From a virus: a DNA stretch of 50,493 bases. The DNA is taken from positions 1 through 50,493 of the IMG/VR virus record IMGVR_UViG_3300031251_000028; one strand, given 5' to 3'. Shown here in pieces: positions 2 through 50,493 of the stretch; the first letter of the stretch is position 1, and the number at the start of each line of letters is the position of its first letter. Under the pieces are notes generated by a model. The model ran no database searches. It saw only the letters and a list, made by a program, of their open reading frames with translations, and was not told the DNA's origin. The translations under genes were made by a program, and so were the position numbers.

Positions 2-124
2 GACATTATTGACACCCTGACCAACCACAAGATCGGCTGCCAGCAGGATCTTGAAGGGAAGTCTGATGCTTATCTGAACGACCTCAAAATGCAACTGGAA
101 AACGAGAAGGAGAAGGAAGCTTAA
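2..124 (+). CDS. C-terminal end of a truncated cassette gene, function unknown
   Basis: An open frame enters from the left edge and ends at TAA 122-124, giving about 40 residues of a charged, helix-rich C-terminus. The start lies outside the window and I recognise no family. The stop codon sits inside the R'' core (GCTTAAC) of the first attC-like site, the usual arrangement for the gene of an integron cassette. I therefore infer that it is the first visible cassette gene. Confidence 0.45.
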   Translation, partial: DIIDTLTNHKIGCQQDLEGKSDAYLNDLKMQLENEKEKEA

Positions 125-167
125 CGGCTTGAGTTGAGCCTGAATAGGCTCGAACGTTTGGTTATGC
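119..167 (+). other. attC-like recombination site 1
   Basis: R'' core GCTTAAC (119-125) and R' core GTTATGC (161-167) are inverted and pair except at one position. Between them, 133-140 (GTTGAGCC) pairs with GGCTC-AAC at 147-155. G152 is unpaired, like the extrahelical bases that mark the L' arm of integron attC sites. The loop is only 6 nt and the site 49 bp, so it is short for an attC. It lies exactly between the stop of one gene and the start of the next. Confidence 0.6.
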
Positions 168-191
168 GTTCGGGTGGATCGGAGCGAATCA

Positions 192-461
192 GTGACATGC
201 ATACCAATTAAAAACGGAATACTCTGCATTACTCCAACATTCAAGCCAGGTGATCTTCCGCCAGATGGATATTTAGCTTGGCACGAATGGGCGGAAGTTC
301 AGCGCAAGGCGGGTATAAAACAGGTTGATTGCGGGGTATGTGGCAAGGCGCAAACTCCACAAGAACTAAGTGGGCATGTGAAGACGTATGAAGCGAAGAA
401 CAAACAAGGCAATTCAGTGATGGTGACAGAGCCGATATGCAGCAAATGTTTTTACGCATAA
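192..461 (+). CDS. Small zinc-ribbon-like hypothetical protein (cassette gene)
   Basis: An 89-residue protein with a CxxC pair (CGVC) near the middle and a second (CSKC) near the C-terminus, so it probably binds one zinc. The segment GYLAWHEWAEVQ looks like small hypothetical proteins I recall from proteobacterial phages, but no function is known to me. GTG at 192 is preferred because GGAGCG lies 5 nt upstream; a GTG at 174 in the same frame lacks a ribosome site. The TAA stop lies inside the R'' core of the next attC-like site, and the start is 24 nt after the R' core of the previous one. The gene thus has the architecture of an integron cassette. Confidence 0.65.
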   Translation: MTCIPIKNGILCITPTFKPGDLPPDGYLAWHEWAEVQRKAGIKQVDCGVCGKAQTPQELSGHVKTYEAKNKQGNSVMVTEPICSKCFYA

Positions 462-519
462 CGGCTTGGGCGGTGAACCGCCAGGCCTCACCGGGCGGCT
501 TCCACCGTCCTGGTTAAAC
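456..519 (+). other. attC-like recombination site 2
   Basis: R'' GCATAAC (456-462) and R' GTTAAAC (513-519, matching GTTRRRY) bound a 64-bp site. The L'' arm GGTGAACCGCC (472-482) pairs fully with GGCGG-TTC-ACC in 494-506. This leaves C499 and C503 unpaired: two extrahelical bases on the L' side, as in bona fide attC hairpins. The spacer after R'' (GGCTTG) matches that of site 1. Confidence 0.7.
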
Positions 520-535
520 CAGCGAAAGGAAAGCC

Positions 536-604
536 ATGCAAGAATGTATTTTCACACTGGAAAGCATACGAGAATATCTAAAAATTACAGGGGGCTGGAT
601 ATGA
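536..604 (+). CDS. Possible 22-residue leader peptide
   Basis: A short frame with ATG at 536 has AAAGGA 5-10 nt upstream and ends at TGA 602-604, overlapping the ATG (601) of the next gene. This fits translational coupling. It begins 17 nt after the R' core of attC-like site 2, where a cassette gene is expected to start. It could equally be a decayed N-terminus, and there is no recognisable function. Confidence 0.35.
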   Translation: MQECIFTLESIREYLKITGGWI

Positions 605-1029
605 CCGGCGACATCGTTAAAAAAGAGGACATGACATACGGCAAACTTTCTGACCTAGAAATGGCATCCAAAGTGCGGATGCTGTTTAGAGACACTCTGG
701 AGCATGAAGCGGTCTGTTGTGGTGCGAGAGACAGGATTATGTATCTCAGCCAGCAGGTAGATCGGCTGGAGAATGAAGTTTCCGAACTGGCGCAGAATGT
801 GTGCGATTCATGCTCACCTGATAGCTACGGCTGGATATTCAACCGTGTGGAGGGTAAGGCTGCTTGTGTCTGCATGACGGAAGCTGAACCCTTCCAGATA
901 TTGAAAGCGGCGTTGGAAAAACTAGCGTGTCTTGGCAACGGTGATCGGGTCGGAAACAGTGACGGTAATATTATCGCTATTGAAGCATTAAGGGCAGTTC
1001 TCCCACTGGACTATGCAGAGTCGGTTTAA
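601..1029 (+). CDS. Hypothetical cassette protein
   Basis: A 142-residue protein. ATG 601 is chosen because AGGGGGC lies just upstream and the preceding mini-ORF stops on top of it; longer in-frame starts lack a ribosome site. The middle (residues 35-70) is predicted helical/coiled-coil with several cysteines, including CCGARD and a CDSC motif. I recognise no family. The TAA stop overlaps the R'' core of attC-like site 3, so it is interpreted as the gene of the second complete cassette. Confidence 0.55.
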   Translation: MTGDIVKKEDMTYGKLSDLEMASKVRMLFRDTLEHEAVCCGARDRIMYLSQQVDRLENEVSELAQNVCDSCSPDSYGWIFNRVEGKAACVCMTEAEPFQILKAALEKLACLGNGDRVGNSDGNIIAIEALRAVLPLDYAESV

Positions 1030-1084
1030 TGGCTTTAGCTGTGCGGCGAGCGCAGCGAAGACCGTCACCAGCGTTTTGTTATGA
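1024..1084 (+). other. attC-like recombination site 3
   Basis: R'' GTTTAAT (1024-1030) is degenerate at its last base; R' is GTTATGA (1078-1084). L'' GCTGTGCGG (1038-1046) pairs with CCG-CAC-AGC in 1062-1072, leaving T1065 and C1069 unpaired. This two-bulge pattern is the same as in the distant site at 48673-48732. The two also share 19 of 22 positions across the loop and arm region (1044-1065 versus 48692-48713). Confidence 0.6.
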
Positions 1085-1096
1085 CACGTAAGGAGG

Positions 1097-1646
1097 ATGA
1101 ACAAATTGAGATTATTAGATTTATTCTGTTGTAGCGGCGGTGCAGGGGTTGGCTACCACCGTGCGGGTTTTGATGTTGTCGGTGTGGACATCGACCATCA
1201 AGAGGAATACCCATTCGAGTTCGTGCAAGGAAACGCTTTGGAGTACGTGAAGGAACACGGCCACAAATTTGATGTGATTCACGCAAGCCCACCCTGCCAG
1301 CACTTTACGAAGTACAAAAACTGCCGCAAAGATATTGCCGAGCGGTACGAAGACCTCATTCAGCCGACAAGGGATGTGCTGCAAGCCAGCGGCAAACCGT
1401 ATGTAATGGAAAACGTGGTAGGGTCGCCACTGTTGGCACCGATAACCCTTTGCGGGTCAATGTTTGGGCTGGACGTGCGGCGGCACAGACTATTTGAGAG
1501 CAACATGGAGTTGACTCCGCCGAAGTGCGACCACACAGTATGGGAGCCGAATATGGATAACTGACCTCCGCAAATTGTCCGAAGCAATACCACCGGCATA
1601 CACGCGGTTTATTGGCGAACAGATGAAGCAACATTTAGTGACATAA
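1097..1646 (+). pseudogene. C5-cytosine DNA methyltransferase, frameshifted near its 3' end
   Basis: The main frame (1097-1564) shows C5-methyltransferase motifs: the SAM-binding LDLFCCSGGAGVGYHRAGF, the catalytic PPCQ of motif IV (SPPCQHFT), ENV of motif VI and RRHRLFES of motif VIII. The frame ends after WEPNMDN. The characteristic C-terminus (LRKLSEAIPPAYTRFIGEQ) continues in another frame from about 1560 and stops at TAA 1644-1646. Loss of an AC dinucleotide at about 1560 would explain this. The region before the junction is also shorter than in phage relatives I recall, so an internal deletion is possible. AAGGAGG touches ATG 1097; TTG 1106 is better spaced. The restored stop lies inside an R''-like ATAAC, supporting a cassette origin. 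No cognate restriction enzyme is visible. Confidence 0.75.
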
Positions 1647-1657
1647 CAATGATTATC
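1641..1657 (+). repeat. Half attC-like site / shared cassette boundary
   Basis: The methyltransferase frame stops in ACATAAC, an R''-like core, but no complete partner core follows. The 15 bp at 1643-1657 (ATAACAATGATTATC) recur exactly at 49636-49650, just after the other cassette gene. The sequence is nearly an inverted repeat. It may be an attC deletion remnant in which both L arms were lost. Confidence 0.45.
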
Positions 1658-1764
1658 CCGCTGATTTGGCCAAGTCAGTGAATACCACCATGATCTATAC
1701 CCACGTCATGCAAAAGAAATCGGCGGTGAAGAGTCCGCTGGACAGAATGTTGAGGGCAGCATGA
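1651..1764 (+). pseudogene. Relic of an integron integrase (IntI) C-terminus
   Basis: In the frame ending at TGA 1762-1764, the last ~30 codons read SVNTTMIYTHVM...VKSPLDRM. This is the end of integron integrases (IntI1 has DVSTTMIYTHVL...VRSPLDAL), including the nucleophilic tyrosine in TTMIYTHV. No other part of a recombinase lies upstream, so only the 3' end remains. It has the same orientation as the cassettes, whereas classical intI is divergent from them. Its stop overlaps the ATG of the next gene. A XerC/phage-type recombinase is an alternative, but the SPLD tail favours IntI. Confidence 0.7.
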
Positions 1765-3193: not shown

Positions 3194-3353
3194 AATCAGA
3201 ACCACCACCCTGAGAGACGCCGAGCGCTACCAATACGAAATGGTGCGCCGGATGGAAAAGAACCCGGCAGCGATAGAGCAGGACCACTACATGACCCGCT
3301 ACATCCTGGAGATCATCCAGGACCGTATTGCGGAAAAGGATAAAGGGAAATAA
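3183..3353 (+). CDS. Small hypothetical protein
   Basis: A 56-residue frame with ATG 3183 overlapping the end of the nuclease gene. Its TAA (3351-3353) overlaps the ATG of the helicase-methyltransferase gene. It is charged and helical, with no recognisable domain. The tight overlaps on both sides argue that it is a real coupled gene. Confidence 0.55.
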   Translation: MATEIRTTTLRDAERYQYEMVRRMEKNPAAIEQDHYMTRYILEIIQDRIAEKDKGK

Positions 3354-5854
3354 TGGATTACATCGAATTTCTGAAATCCAAGATCGAGATAGCCAAGGAC
3401 ACCGGGTTCATCATCAAGCCGGAAGAGGTCAACCCGGTTATGAAGCCCCATGCGAGGGATGCGGTTGTATGGGCGGTCAAAGGAGGGCGCCGGGCGCTGT
3501 TCGAGTCATTCGGCCTCGCTAAGACCAGCCAGCAGCTTGAATTTGCCCGTATCGTTTCAGCGCGGGAAAAAGGCCGGGCGCTGATCGTGCTCCCCCTTGG
3601 CGTCAAGCAGGAGTTTGTGCAGGATGCTGTTCACCTACTCGGAATGAAGGGTCCGCCCTATGTGCGGAACATGGCCGAGGTATCGGCTGCGGAACATTCC
3701 ATTGTTCTGACCAATTACGAGCGCGTCCGCGACGGCGACATTGACCCGAAGAAGTTCACGGCAGCATCCAGCCTTGACGAAGCATCGGTGCTCAGGTCAT
3801 TCGGCAGCAAAACATACCAGACGTTCCTGGATCTGTTCAAGGGTGTGCCGTACAAGCTCGTTGCTACGGCCACGCCATCACCCAACAAGTACAAGGAACT
3901 GATCCATTATGCCGGATATCTGGAGGCGATGGACACCGGGCAGGCCTTGACGCGGTTCTTTCAACGTGACAGCACGCAGGCGAACAACCTCACGCTTTAC
4001 AAACACAAGGAAGAGGAGTTCTGGTTGTGGGTTTCCACCTGGGCACTGTTCGTTACCAAGCCGTCCGACCTTGGCCATTCTGATGAAGGCTACGACCTGC
4101 CCCCCATGGAAGTCATTTACCATGAGGTACCGGTAGACCACCTGGCAGGACCTGCCGAGAAGGACGGGCAAACCAAGCTATTCAGGGACGCAGCCGAAGG
4201 ACTTAAAGAAGCGGCTCGGGAGAAGCGGGACAGTATTGACACGCGCATTGACAAGATGATGGAGATCATCACCGCTGCGCCGGACGACCATTTCATAATC
4301 TGGCACGACCTGGAAGCGGAGCGTCACGCTATCAAGAAGGCCTTGCCCGAGGCGATGGAGGTGTACGGGACGCAAGACTTGGATATCAGGGAACAACGGA
4401 CTATCGACTTTTCCCATGGCCGGATCAAGTACCTCGCGACGAAACCTGAGATATCAGGATCAGGCTGCAACTTCCAGCGGCATTGCCATAAGGCCATATT
4501 CCTGGGCATCGGGTACAAGTTTAACGATTTCGTGCAGGCCATCCACCGCGTATATCGGTTTCTCCAGACGGAGAAAGTAGAGATCCACATCATCTATACT
4601 GAGAGCGAACGCGCCATCCTCGAAGCTCTGCTCAAAAAATGGAAGCAGCATGATTACCTCGTCGGCAAGATGACCGACATCATTAAGCAGTATGGACTAT
4701 CCACTACATCCGTGATCGACAAACTGGCGCGGAAGATAGGAGTCAACCGAGTGAAGATAGAAGGCCAGCACTTTACGGCAGTCAACAACGACTGCGTTCT
4801 GGAAACCTCACAGATGCCAGATAACAGCATCGACCTAATTCATACCTCCATCCCGTTCAGCAACCATTACGAATATACCCCGTCATACAACGATTTCGGC
4901 CATAACGAGAATAATCAGCGGTTTTTCGACCAGATGGATTTCCTCACCGATAACCTGCTTCGCATTCTCAAACCCGGTCGGGTGTTTGCCTGCCACGTCA
5001 AAGATCGCGTCATGTTCGGCAATGCCACCGGTACCGGTATGCCAACCATCGACCCGTTCCATGTGGACTGCATCAATCACTACCGCGATCACGGCTTTCA
5101 GTATTTCGGCATGATTACCGTCATTACCGACGTGGTGAAGGAGAATAACCAGACCTACCGCCTGGGCTGGACAGAGCAGTGCAAGGACGGCTCTAAAATG
5201 GGCGTCGGTTGTCCTGAATACGTACTGTTATTCCGCAAGTTACCTACCGATACCTCAACCGCTTATGCAGATGTGACCGTGACGAAAACGAAAGAAGAAT
5301 ATACCCGAGCTCAGTGGCAGCTTGACGCCCATGCTTTTTGGCGATCATCCGGCAACCGGCTAGTGAATAAAGACGAGCTGGCCAGCATAGACACCAGCAA
5401 CCTGCAGCGCGTGTACCGCGAGTTCAGCCGGGAGACGGTCTACAGTTACGAGGATCATGTTGCCCTGGCAAAGAAGCTGGATTCTGATGGCCGGCTGCCG
5501 GCGACCTTCATGGTGGTAGCCCCCGGGTCCTGGACCGACGAAGTATGGGACGACATCAACCGGATGAGAACCCTGAACAGCGAACAGGTCCGGCGCAACT
5601 TACAGATGCACGTCTGCCCCCTGCAATTCGACATCGTGGAGCGAATTATCAACCGGTTCAGCAATAAGGGCGAAATGGTCTTTGACCCGTTCGGAGGTAT
5701 CGGTACCGTCCCATACATGGCGATTAAGGCCGGGCGCAAGGGCTACATGACCGAGCTCAATAGCGACTATTTCCGGGATGCTATCGGGTACCTGCAGGCG
5801 GCAGAGAAAGAGGTGGATATGCCGAGTCTGTTTGACTTAATGGAGGCCGCTTAA
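3353..5854 (+). CDS. Helicase-DNA methyltransferase fusion
   Basis: 833 residues. The N-terminal ~450 resemble an SF2 helicase: a degenerate Walker A (FGLAKTSQ at ~52-59, normally GLGKT), DEAS Walker B (~141), TATPSP motif III (~172) and QAIHRVYRF motif VI (~396). The C-terminal part is an amino-methyltransferase of the permuted type. Motif IV reads TSIPF (~498) instead of DPPY/SPPY, and motif I is FDPFGGIGT (~777). Phages carry similar fused proteins, so self-methylation of phage DNA is likely; whether the helicase half is an active translocase is unclear given the Ala in Walker A. It resembles a restriction-modification Res-Mod arrangement, but no nuclease domain is evident. Confidence 0.8.
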   Translation: MDYIEFLKSKIEIAKDTGFIIKPEEVNPVMKPHARDAVVWAVKGGRRALFESFGLAKTSQQLEFARIVSAREKGRALIVLPLGVKQEFVQDAVHLLGMKGPPYVRNMAEVSAAEHSIVLTNYERVRDGDIDPKKFTAASSLDEASVLRSFGSKTYQTFLDLFKGVPYKLVATATPSPNKYKELIHYAGYLEAMDTGQALTRFFQRDSTQANNLTLYKHKEEEFWLWVSTWALFVTKPSDLGHSDEGYDLPPMEVIYHEVPVDHLAGPAEKDGQTKLFRDAAEGLKEAAREKRDSIDTRIDKMMEIITAAPDDHFIIWHDLEAERHAIKKALPEAMEVYGTQDLDIREQRTIDFSHGRIKYLATKPEISGSGCNFQRHCHKAIFLGIGYKFNDFVQAIHRVYRFLQTEKVEIHIIYTESERAILEALLKKWKQHDYLVGKMTDIIKQYGLSTTSVIDKLARKIGVNRVKIEGQHFTAVNNDCVLETSQMPDNSIDLIHTSIPFSNHYEYTPSYNDFGHNENNQRFFDQMDFLTDNLLRILKPGRVFACHVKDRVMFGNATGTGMPTIDPFHVDCINHYRDHGFQYFGMITVITDVVKENNQTYRLGWTEQCKDGSKMGVGCPEYVLLFRKLPTDTSTAYADVTVTKTKEEYTRAQWQLDAHAFWRSSGNRLVNKDELASIDTSNLQRVYREFSRETVYSYEDHVALAKKLDSDGRLPATFMVVAPGSWTDEVWDDINRMRTLNSEQVRRNLQMHVCPLQFDIVERIINRFSNKGEMVFDPFGGIGTVPYMAIKAGRKGYMTELNSDYFRDAIGYLQAAEKEVDMPSLFDLMEAA

Positions 5855-42966: not shown

Positions 42967-44391
42967 TCACTTTGCCATCCTTCTTCGCACCTTCACAGCC
43001 TCCAGACTGACCACGTTTGGGGGCTGTTCCTTTCCTGGCGCCATCATTCCCCTGAATTTCTCTTTCTGATCGGGGGTGAGGCTTTCCCAGAACTCCGAAC
43101 CGGCGATCATAGCCGCTTGGGATTCCGTCAGGGGTTTTGCCTCCTCTTCCCCGTACGGTATGCCGGCGCTCCGCAGGATGAACGCCGCGATCTTTTCTAC
43201 CACTTCCCGCAGACGGTCCATGTTGAATTGAGTATACCCTTCCGTTATGTCCAGAGGAATGGCGTGGTTCGCCAGCCGCTTCCTACTGAACAGGGTGATT
43301 TCCATCTCCTCACAGTATGATATGAACGAACGGCGCAAGTCGTGATGCGATGCCTTGACTCCGGATGTCTCTCTTACCTTCTTCAGGGCCGTTCGGGCCT
43401 CGGTTATGTGGCCTGTTTTGCCGTATGAAGGGAATACGTAGGAATCCGGACCATCATAGTAATACTTCATCCTGGCCTTCAGTCTGTCGATGATGAAGCG
43501 CGACAAGGGAACTTCCAGCACAACGCCGGTCTTCGTTTCCCGGAATACCGCCGTGCCGGCTGTAAGATTGACTTCCTTCCATTTCAACGTTGCTGTCTCC
43601 GTACACCGAGATCCTTGAAACAGCATCAACAGGATAAAGTCCTGGCTGGTGTCGAAATTCAGATTCAAGACAGCCGGTAACCACTTGGGAAGGTCTGCAG
43701 GCTTGATGTATGTCTCTCTCCGTGGAACGTTGTACCAGCCGTTGACAGCGGACAGTTTGGCCACAGGGTTCTTGATGATCACGTCTTCGTACATGTGCAT
43801 TACATGGTTGAATACCGCCCGGAGTATTCGCATGACACCATCCGCTCGGGATTTACTCCTTTTGCCAATTTCGGTATGTTTGGCAACAATCATGTTGCCG
43901 TCGATTGATCTGAGGGGTTTGTCCTTCCAATCTGGTATATACCGGTCGATGTCCCGCTGGTAGGTGTCAACAGAGGATGTTTTCAGTTTCTTCTTTGTGC
44001 GAGTGTATCCCTCTAACGCTTGTTGCAGCGTGATGTCCTTGCGGGTTTCCTGCTCGGCGGTAGCAATCTTATCGGCAGCCAGCTTTTCCTTCTCTTCTCT
44101 CCTGTCGTCAGGGGTAACCCCGTTGGCGGCATCTTCAAGTATCGCTTTGGCCTTGGTCAGGGCTTTTTCAAAATCAAGTACATCAGTCCGCCCCAGGCTC
44201 TCGTATATCTCTAGGCGGTTGCCTTTAGCATCCCGGCGGTCCTTTACCCGGCACTGGACAAAGTACGTCCGGGAATTCTGATTGACCTTTACCCCAAAAC
44301 CGGTGATTCTGGTATCGAAGTAGGCTATCTGCTTTCCGGGGATTGCTTCGAGCTTGTCTACGGATGTTCTGGTGATTCGGGCTTTTGGCAT
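42967..44391 (-). CDS. Tyrosine recombinase integrase
   Basis: 474 residues. The N-terminal arm-binding domain (GKQIAYFDTRITGFGVKVNQNSRTYFVQ) is of the DUF4102-like type, followed by a core-binding domain (~120-215). The catalytic domain has Arg262 (QGSRCTETATLKW), the HxxR pair His350-Arg353, His376 and nucleophile Tyr386 (TEGYTQF). A ~75-residue C-terminal extension is present. Its start lies next to attP with arm sites on both sides, so it acts on the tRNA-Leu 3' end. Confidence 0.93.
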   Translation of the reverse strand: MPKARITRTSVDKLEAIPGKQIAYFDTRITGFGVKVNQNSRTYFVQCRVKDRRDAKGNRLEIYESLGRTDVLDFEKALTKAKAILEDAANGVTPDDRREEKEKLAADKIATAEQETRKDITLQQALEGYTRTKKKLKTSSVDTYQRDIDRYIPDWKDKPLRSIDGNMIVAKHTEIGKRSKSRADGVMRILRAVFNHVMHMYEDVIIKNPVAKLSAVNGWYNVPRRETYIKPADLPKWLPAVLNLNFDTSQDFILLMLFQGSRCTETATLKWKEVNLTAGTAVFRETKTGVVLEVPLSRFIIDRLKARMKYYYDGPDSYVFPSYGKTGHITEARTALKKVRETSGVKASHHDLRRSFISYCEEMEITLFSRKRLANHAIPLDITEGYTQFNMDRLREVVEKIAAFILRSAGIPYGEEEAKPLTESQAAMIAGSEFWESLTPDQKEKFRGMMAPGKEQPPNVVSLEAVKVRRRMAK

Positions 44392-48550: not shown

Positions 48551-48678
48551 TTTTAATGGCCTATTCAGTGGGCGTGTGCAGCGGCATGTTGATCTTGTCT
48601 CTTTTTTGGGGTTCGGATGATAAGCGGGACGATATACCTCGCTTCATGCCGATGGAAGATTACAAGGATGGGAAGTAA
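48532..48678 (+). CDS. Very small membrane protein
   Basis: 48 residues with GGAG 7 nt before ATG 48532. N-terminal hydrophobic segment (IEIVLMAYSVGVCSGMLILS), then an acidic/charged tail. Its TAA is inside the R'' core of the attC-like site that follows. Confidence 0.5.
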   Translation: MSTIEIVLMAYSVGVCSGMLILSLFWGSDDKRDDIPRFMPMEDYKDGK

Positions 48679-48732
48679 CGACAAAGCGCACCGGCAAGCG
48701 GAGCGCAGACCGTGTGCCGCGACTGGTTAGAC
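48673..48732 (+). other. attC-like recombination site 4
   Basis: R'' AAGTAAC (48673-48679) and R' GTTAGAC (48726-48732, perfect GTTRRRY). L'' GCGCACCGG (48686-48694) pairs with CCG-GTGC-GC in 48710-48720, leaving T48713 and C48718 unpaired. The bulge pattern and loop sequence match attC-like site 3 (1024-1084). Confidence 0.7.
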
Positions 48733-48763
48733 AACCGGACGTGCCACGGAGCGAGGCGGGACA

Positions 48764-49630
48764 ATGAAAGACCTTTACGGAAACATAGACGAGGAAGGCA
48801 TGTATCAGATGGCGCTTGCAGTCCCGTTGCAGGAAAAGATTGAAAGCGCGATTGCCCTTATCCGGTCTTTTGAATCGCAAGCGTTGAAACTGTCGGATGA
48901 TGGGTTTTATGTCTGCTTTTCTGGCGGGAAAGACAGCATTGTCATGGCAAAACTATTTGAAATGGCGGGGGTAAAGTACCGGCTGCATTACAACAACGTG
49001 ACCATAGACCCGCCTGAGCTGGTGCAGTTTGTTAAGCGGGAATACCCGCAAACGGAATGGCACAGTGTAGGGACTCCGCTGCCGCTTTACATGGCAAAGA
49101 AAAGCAACGGGCCACCGACACGATTAGCGCGGTGGTGTTGTGAGATTTACAAGGAGCAGGGAGGTAGCGGGGTTTTTAAGGCAATCGGAGTGAGGGCGGA
49201 AGAGTCGCCACGGCGTAAAGGCTTGTGGAAACAGATCACGAACAACCGCAATACAGGGCTGATTCTCTGCCCCATTTTGTACTGGACTGAGCGGGACGTA
49301 TGGCAGTTTATCCGCGACAACGGCATGAAATATTGCAGTTTGTACGATGAAGGTTTCAAGCGTTTGGGATGCATCGGTTGTCCGATGGGTGGGAAAGAGC
49401 AACAGCGTCGGGATTTTTTACGGTGGCCGAAGCACGAAAAGCTATGGAAGCGAGGATTTGCTGCGTATTGGGCTGCATGGAAAGGAGTCCCGCGTCTCCG
49501 AGTGAACAAACAGGGAAATCTTGACCGCTGGATTGAACGAATGGACACCGTTGATGACCTCTGGAACTGGTGGATTAGCGGCAAGGCAGATGAAGGGGAT
49601 GCTCCTGATTGTCAGGGCTATCTCTGGTGA
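48764..49630 (+). CDS. PAPS reductase-family protein (cassette gene)
   Basis: 288 residues. SGGKDS at 53-58 is the PP-loop of the PAPS reductase/DndC-like superfamily. RWCCEIYKE (~125) and GCIGCPMG (~205) give paired cysteines typical of phage members that may bind a metal or Fe-S centre. It could activate sulfur for nucleic-acid modification or act on a nucleotide; the substrate is unknown. Start 32 nt after the R' core of an attC-like site, and a half site just past its stop, mark it as a cassette gene. Confidence 0.8.
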   Translation: MKDLYGNIDEEGMYQMALAVPLQEKIESAIALIRSFESQALKLSDDGFYVCFSGGKDSIVMAKLFEMAGVKYRLHYNNVTIDPPELVQFVKREYPQTEWHSVGTPLPLYMAKKSNGPPTRLARWCCEIYKEQGGSGVFKAIGVRAEESPRRKGLWKQITNNRNTGLILCPILYWTERDVWQFIRDNGMKYCSLYDEGFKRLGCIGCPMGGKEQQRRDFLRWPKHEKLWKRGFAAYWAAWKGVPRLRVNKQGNLDRWIERMDTVDDLWNWWISGKADEGDAPDCQGYLW

Positions 49631-49635
49631 GATTT

Positions 49636-49650
49636 ATAACAATGATTATC
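49636..49650 (+). repeat. Half attC-like site / shared cassette boundary, second copy
   Basis: ATAACAATGATTATC, identical to 1643-1657. It follows a cassette gene stop by 5 nt and is not followed by a full attC partner core. Confidence 0.45.
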
Positions 49651-50129: not shown

Positions 50130-50493
50130 ATGGCCGACGAATCAACAAAAATCACACTGGAATGGCTTCAAGGTAAAAACGCATGTGGTGAAGGTCAACA
50201 GTGGTTCAAGAAGCATTTCCCAAAAGGCGGGGAGATTGCAGATGTGCTTCGCATGGTTGCGCTGGATGAAGCAAACGCATCGTGGATAGCTTGGTTAATG
50301 CAAAGAGCAAAATACTCAGGTGTTGAGTGGTTGGATAACCTGACCGTGGGCGGCTCTCTCGACCTGAGTGGCACCCAGATCACATCCCTGCCGGATAACC
50401 TGACCGTGGGCGGCTATCTCGGCCTGAGTGGCACCCAGATCACATCCCTGCCGGATAACCTGACCGTGGGCGGCTCTCTCGACCTGAGTGGCA
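50130..50493 (+). CDS. Leucine-rich-repeat protein, 5' part
   Basis: At least 121 residues; the gene runs off the window. ATG 50130 has AGGAGG 10 nt upstream. The first ~68 residues (LEWLQGKNACGEGQQWFKKHF, then VALDEANASWIAWLMQ) form a helical domain that often precedes repeat regions in related hypothetical proteins. Then 20-residue repeats LTVGGSLDLSGTQITSLPDN follow, of the bacterial LPx type. Such proteins mediate protein binding; the target is unknown. Confidence 0.65.
   Translation, partial: MADESTKITLEWLQGKNACGEGQQWFKKHFPKGGEIADVLRMVALDEANASWIAWLMQRAKYSGVEWLDNLTVGGSLDLSGTQITSLPDNLTVGGYLGLSGTQITSLPDNLTVGGSLDLSG
50341..50493 (+). repeat. 60-bp tandem coding repeats
   Basis: Units at 50341-50400, 50401-50460 and a partial from 50461, nearly identical (a few substitutions at the Ser-Leu-Asp/Tyr-Leu-Gly position). 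The repeat continues past the window edge. Confidence 0.9.

Follow-up and report, generated by a model that had tools for sequence, protein, structure and literature searches.

A probable phage-borne integron with a decayed integrase gene and cassette genes directed toward attI

Close to the right end of the viral DNA described here lies an attC site followed by a PAPS reductase-family gene, and this stretch is very probably a cassette of a phage-borne integron in which the integrase gene has decayed and the cassette genes point toward attI. With less assurance, we consider it likely that this integron belongs to a phage-specific lineage having its own integrase clade and attI, occurring in unrelated phage types and drawing on a private pool of inverted cassettes co-transcribed with the phage operon.

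The DNA analysed, hereafter the window, is the 50,493-base IMG/VR virus record IMGVR_UViG_3300031251_000028, the class of which is given as linear. Its genes specify a large terminase, a portal, internal virion and tail fibre proteins, an anti-repressor, a replication-initiation protein and a P4-type integrase. These structural and replication genes, together with the P4-type integrase, indicate a temperate tailed phage. An LRR-like protein, coded by a 60-base repeat (50340-50493), runs off the right end, and the repeat may explain why the assembly stops there. The features of the integron are collected in Table 1. A preliminary description of this DNA had pointed to the site at 48673-48732 and the gene behind it; it mentioned neither the integrase remnant and attI nor the turned direction of the cassette genes and the clade of phage-encoded integrases.

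Table 1. Integron features of the window and the phage integrase outside the integron
Feature	Position	Strand	Evidence or remark
attC site 1	119..167	+	covariance model E 3e-8
Cassette gene A, unknown protein	174..461	+	stop codon is the core TAA
attC site 2	456..519	+	bulge-aware scan; covariance model E 1e-9
Cassette gene B, unknown protein	544..1029	+	
attC site 3	1024..1084	+	covariance model E 5e-8; left core degenerate, AAT for AAC
Cassette gene, C5-cytosine methyltransferase N-terminal part	1097..1564	+	Pfam PF00145 5e-6; phrog_363 3e-35
attI-like site, TAAC/AATGATTATCCCGC	1644..1661	+	identical site precedes intact intI in L028, L054, L057-L060, L063
Integron-integrase C-terminal remnant (TTMIYTHVMQKKSAVKSPLDRMLRAA)	1675..1764	+	TIGR02249 positions 290-315 of 315, E 8e-6
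Phage integrase (P4-type tyrosine recombinase)	42967..44391	-	genomic context, outside the integron
attC site of the preliminary description, AAGTAACGACAAAGCGCACCGGCAAGCGGAGCGCAGACCGTGTGCCGCGACTGGTTAGAC	48673..48732	+ (model strand)	bulge-aware scan; covariance model
PAPS cassette, attC and following gene	48679..49639	+	core positions; L002 block; L012/L041 unit
PAPS reductase-family protein, PP-loop SGGKDS, 288 aa	48764..49630	+	Pfam PF01507 (PAPS_reduct) 8e-23; phrog_424 1.7e-40
attI-like site, TAAC/AATGATTATCACCCC, and intI-leader-like stretch, intI absent	49637..~49677	+	by-eye comparison with L028, L031, L057-L060, L063

attC sites and the PAPS-family cassette

The features that define attC sites, namely paired cores, a hairpin and two extrahelical bases on one arm, were all found. 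At 48673-48732 the right core is the ideal GTTAGAC, and the left core, which had also been called ideal, agrees only across TAAC. The two-bulge pattern noted earlier is present as two single-base bulges on the 3' arm, three pairs apart, and so is the identity of 19 of 22 positions with site 3 (CGGCAAGCGGAGCGCAGACCGT versus CGGCGAGCGCAGCGAAGACCGT). The sites had been placed nearly 3 kb from the window ends; they in fact lie about 1.8 kb and 1.0 kb from these ends. The extrahelical bases of a canonical attC site show which strand undergoes recombination (PMC3053210). Those of 48673-48732 lie on the 3' arm, so that the recombination "top" strand is the minus strand. In three of the four window sites the AAC and GTT cores are both intact.

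A first, looser attC scan gave matches at chance level and was dropped in favour of a bulge-aware scan, in which cores, arms and bulges are modelled, and of covariance models. The two best bulge-aware matches in the whole window were 456-519 (21.3) and 48673-48732 (14.0); in shuffled windows there were 0.1 matches at scores of at least 14 and none at scores of at least 18. The covariance model was trained on 28 attC sites taken from other phages (one of the 28 comes from L095, which is a locus of a bacterial MAG), with neither window sequence nor sites of the 48673-48732 type included. It shows compensatory changes at 8 of 12 pairs and two conserved bulges. Run against the 50 kb of the window, it ranked the four attC sites first, all on the plus strand (E 1e-9 to 1.5e-7), the site at 48673-48732 having an E value of 1.5e-7 and the fifth-ranked match one of only 0.12. 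An Rfam search of the window returned no attC match.

A hairpin scan placed the site type of 48673-48732 at 20 positions, spread over 17 viral contigs and followed by differing genes, in agreement with the common descent that had been proposed for the sites. The covariance model had no match at E<0.05 in the 1.03 Mb of 80 phages that share the helicase-methyltransferase gene (window 3353-5854). These results bear on another reading, in which the hairpins serve phage operons in transcription or regulation and are not sites of recombination. Their positions between co-directional genes, overlapping stop codons, would suit such a role. We nevertheless regard the idea as highly improbable, given the paired cores with fixed AAC/GTT, the covariation and the two conserved bulges, the presence of one site type before different genes, the absence of attC matches from the 80 related phages, and the intact integron integrases and attI that adjoin attC sites.

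The PAPS cassette extends from one AA/C crossover point to the next, nearly the interval previously marked as a second integron-type cassette locus, and the block that the window has in common with L002 begins at the attC edge. A PAPS_reduct domain upholds the family assignment already given to the protein. With the NCBIfam cysH model it scores 43.5 bits against a cut-off of 165, and other CysH models are likewise far below theirs, so that plain sulfate reduction is unlikely; the sulfur modification of nucleic acids proposed in the preliminary description would be a possible activity. The protein is a member of phrog_424, a phage PAPS reductase family; most of the relatives found are ordinary phage genes from which attC flanks are absent, unlike the window gene. 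Constant presence of the gene at this locus in relatives, with no attC-like flanks, had been named as a result that would speak against a cassette. This is not what is seen: L002, L012 and L013 have such flanks and further relatives have none. Two PAPS-family genes (L004 and L005), about 10 kb apart on one viral contig, are without attC flanks.

attI sites and integrases

Of the 17 viral contigs with the shared hairpin, two encode an intact integron integrase, L028 (398 bits) and L054 (338 bits). Further searches led to viral contigs L057-L061, L108 and L246, and also to L063, which is a contig from a Deltaproteobacteria MAG; the TIGR02249 cut-off is 265 bits and the intact IntI proteins of relatives score 338-408 bits. 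One strand of L028, L054, L057-L060 and L063 carries, after the last cassette gene, first the attI motif, then a ribosome-binding site and then intI; in the intact relatives the motif stays constant between differing last cassettes and intI. An IntI-type tyrosine recombinase with the integron-specific insert is found in the relatives, the window having the C-terminal remnant only, and an attI between the intI 5' end and the first cassette is found in the relatives and at both window loci.

One attI-like motif (TAAC/AATGATTATC; TAAC/AATNATTATC) ends both the PAPS unit and the left array of the window. Beyond it the left locus has the IntI C-terminus only, 26 aa of which match the profile, with 73% identity to the intact phage IntI of L028; the right locus has the leader-like stretch and then another gene. 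The attI and integrase remnant beside the arrays mark the window as a decayed integron in a phage, and it is plausible that both loci form one array. Since the window integrase is broken, the array would move only with an integrase from another phage or from the host. One might go further and regard the array as purely fossil, the PAPS gene being now a fixed phage gene. That reading concerns present activity and is compatible with the origin proposed here. The shortness of the integrase match (26 aa) and comparable internal deletions or truncations of intI in L031 and L092 are in its favour, but intact IntI in related phages of the same collections could act in trans, and both cores, AAC and GTT, have been preserved in three of the four attC sites of the window. 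We hold it to be possible, while leaning against it.

Differently broken intI genes stand beside arrays in L031 (reverse complement, 1892-2060), L092 (2151-2309) and the window (1675-1764), among them one in-frame internal deletion and one fusion to half an attC. In L108 (2950-3620) a unit of two genes in front of an intact intI has an attI-like site on either side, which looks like a duplication of attI; attI is present in two copies in the window as well. The C5 methyltransferase cassette (1097-1640) is interrupted, its frame breaking near 1562, with an apparent C-terminal motif in another frame. No attC was found in a search of relatives of this methyltransferase. A pattern search with the attI motif alone gave mostly chance matches; among the loci searched, attC was present only at L031, L058/L140 and L059/L134.

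In a tree of 34 integrases the eight from phages all group in a single clade (100/99), separate from the 26 bacterial ones, a limited sample drawn from a similarity search. The contigs themselves are diverse: L063 specifies a Mu-type transposition protein, a terminase and a portal, L057 and L059 a portal of another family, and L060 and L092 primases, with a terminase additionally in L092. One L054 gene is related to the L059 terminase; among the integron-bearing contigs that were compared, most terminases are unrelated. Intact integrons thus occur in unrelated phage types; they lie on several viral contigs and on a single MAG contig, which also has phage genes. The viral contig L246 (1332-5948) encodes a more distant IntI; its layout seems to be inverted in the same way, and its attC matches are weak. 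Extra IntI-like genes of the L063 and L092 assemblies were accompanied by no convincing attC arrays.

Gene polarity and the putative mobile unit

The model built from phage sites matches the intI strand, left of intI, at the phage loci and likewise in MAG integrons, which makes the attI-attC geometry normal. The genes are what differ. In the Shewanella integron L100 and in TJE1 the same model falls on the strand opposite that of the genes, whereas among callable phage cassette genes 55 of 58 point toward attI, in the same direction as intI, instead of showing the canonical layout (away from attI, attC 3' of the gene); in bacterial integrons 17 of 19 point away from attI. For ORFs between sites, mostly called from the longest ORF, the counts on the model strand and the opposite one are 55 and 3 in phages and 2 and 17 in bacterial arrays (Fisher p 4e-12, with non-independent cells, sites and genes being inherited, and with a Shewanella prophage integron and L095 in the "bacterial" group). 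L095, which had been a candidate phage locus, belongs to a bacterial MAG; its genes run in the canonical direction, its intI is broken, and it was counted among the controls. The convention by which extrahelical bases give polarity comes from canonical attC and was checked on few controls (L100, L101 and L045); a weak P12002L match disagrees with it. At 52 of 74 sites the preceding gene uses the core TAA as its stop codon.

Five stretches common to different loci start at the left edge of an attC. The one pair with a clear breakpoint is L012 and L041, which have about 1 kb in common (approximately 90%), from the TAAC of one attC to the next TAAC, and differ in their downstream attC sites. From the edges of this block the mobile unit would be an attC and the gene that follows it, with attC upstream, in agreement with the position of attI.

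The inversion would be only apparent if ordinary bacterial cassettes (gene, then attC) had been captured by a phage as a CALIN and the orientation of attC misread. Phage CALINs have been published (Qi et al. 2023), attC is near-palindromic, gene stops meet the core as they do in normal cassettes, and complementarity between the cores across the gene suits either reading. Three observations make this unlikely in our judgement: the final gene of each array is followed by attI and no attC, the L012/L041 block takes in the upstream attC and leaves out the downstream one, and a single model matches the coding strand in phages and the opposite strand in the Shewanella and TJE1 arrays and the MAG integrons. 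We accordingly retain the phage-borne integron with genes pointing toward attI.

Relatives without the integron exist. In L164, the closest relative by the helicase-methyltransferase gene (86%), a helicase gene precedes the homologue of window gene 1761, replacing attI and the integrase remnant. The homologue of window gene 2109 in L031 lies downstream, and L031 has attI and an internally deleted intI.

From the attC and attI sites, the integrase remnant, the intact relatives, the gene polarity and the extent of shared cassettes seen in the sequences we infer how recombination and transcription might proceed. The order on one strand in intact relatives is (attC-gene)n, attI, intI and phage genes. 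At attC the phage integrase would fold the coding-sequence strand, and the folded site would be recombined with attI or another attC at the G/TT point. With attI beside the intI start codon, new cassettes would enter there and accumulate before intI. Since the cassette genes point toward attI, they are probably transcribed together with intI from upstream phage promoters, and a Pc promoter would be unneeded.

Cargo and comparison with known systems

The cargo is rich in DNA-modification genes. Pfam matches among 82 cassette proteins comprise C5 methyltransferases (3), N6/N4 methyltransferases (3), MT-A70, Dam, N6_Mtase, Mom, PAPS_reduct (3, or 4 by PHROGs), ThyX, NADAR and HNH. The one NADAR match among the 82 is probably to a protein of L043 (7523-7984, minus strand), the ORF having been assigned from the sequence. 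As judged from the Pfam list, the cargo may serve in the evasion of host restriction.

The prevailing view is that integrons are bacterial (and archaeal) gene-capture systems which phages acquire in passing. A phage-encoded integron having inverted cassettes and a separate integrase clade would represent a built-in means of collecting and swapping DNA-modification and other accessory genes. If a phage-specific lineage exists, the inversion would largely separate its pool from bacterial integrons, exchanged cassettes being antisense to the promoter. The fixed orientation of cassettes in bacteria, the mixing of phage and bacterial pools and the building of cassettes by phages are thereby opened to testing.

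Phage attC arrays, CALINs and captured integrons have already been published (Qi et al. 2023, PMC9892861). That study, like ours, found phage genomes to contain attC and cassettes, in which DNA methyltransferase genes are frequent, and some temperate phages to carry a captured bacterial integron. Its complete integrons are host or class 1 pieces (V. anguillarum, E. coli P1 and Shewanella phages), and the TJE1 and PH101 cassettes are described as typical, whereas the integrons described here have an integrase of the phage clade and genes directed toward attI. A literature search, in which preprints and most subscription papers fell outside coverage, gave no account of inverted phage cassettes or of a phage integrase clade.

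The best solved relative of the phage integrases is V. cholerae IntI4/VchIntIA (PDB 2a3v), with which phage IntI aligns over nearly its full length. Both have the integron-specific insert and the conserved catalytic R, K, HxxR, H and Y; IntI4 falls in a separate clade, and the V. anguillarum IntI lies far away in the tree. The reverse integrons of Treponema (PMC3607928, PMC4909258) resemble those of the phages in that intI and the cassette genes are co-directional. In Treponema, however, intI is transcribed toward attI; in the phage integrons it is not, attI being at the intI 5' end, so that intI has its normal position and direction and it is the cassette genes that are turned.
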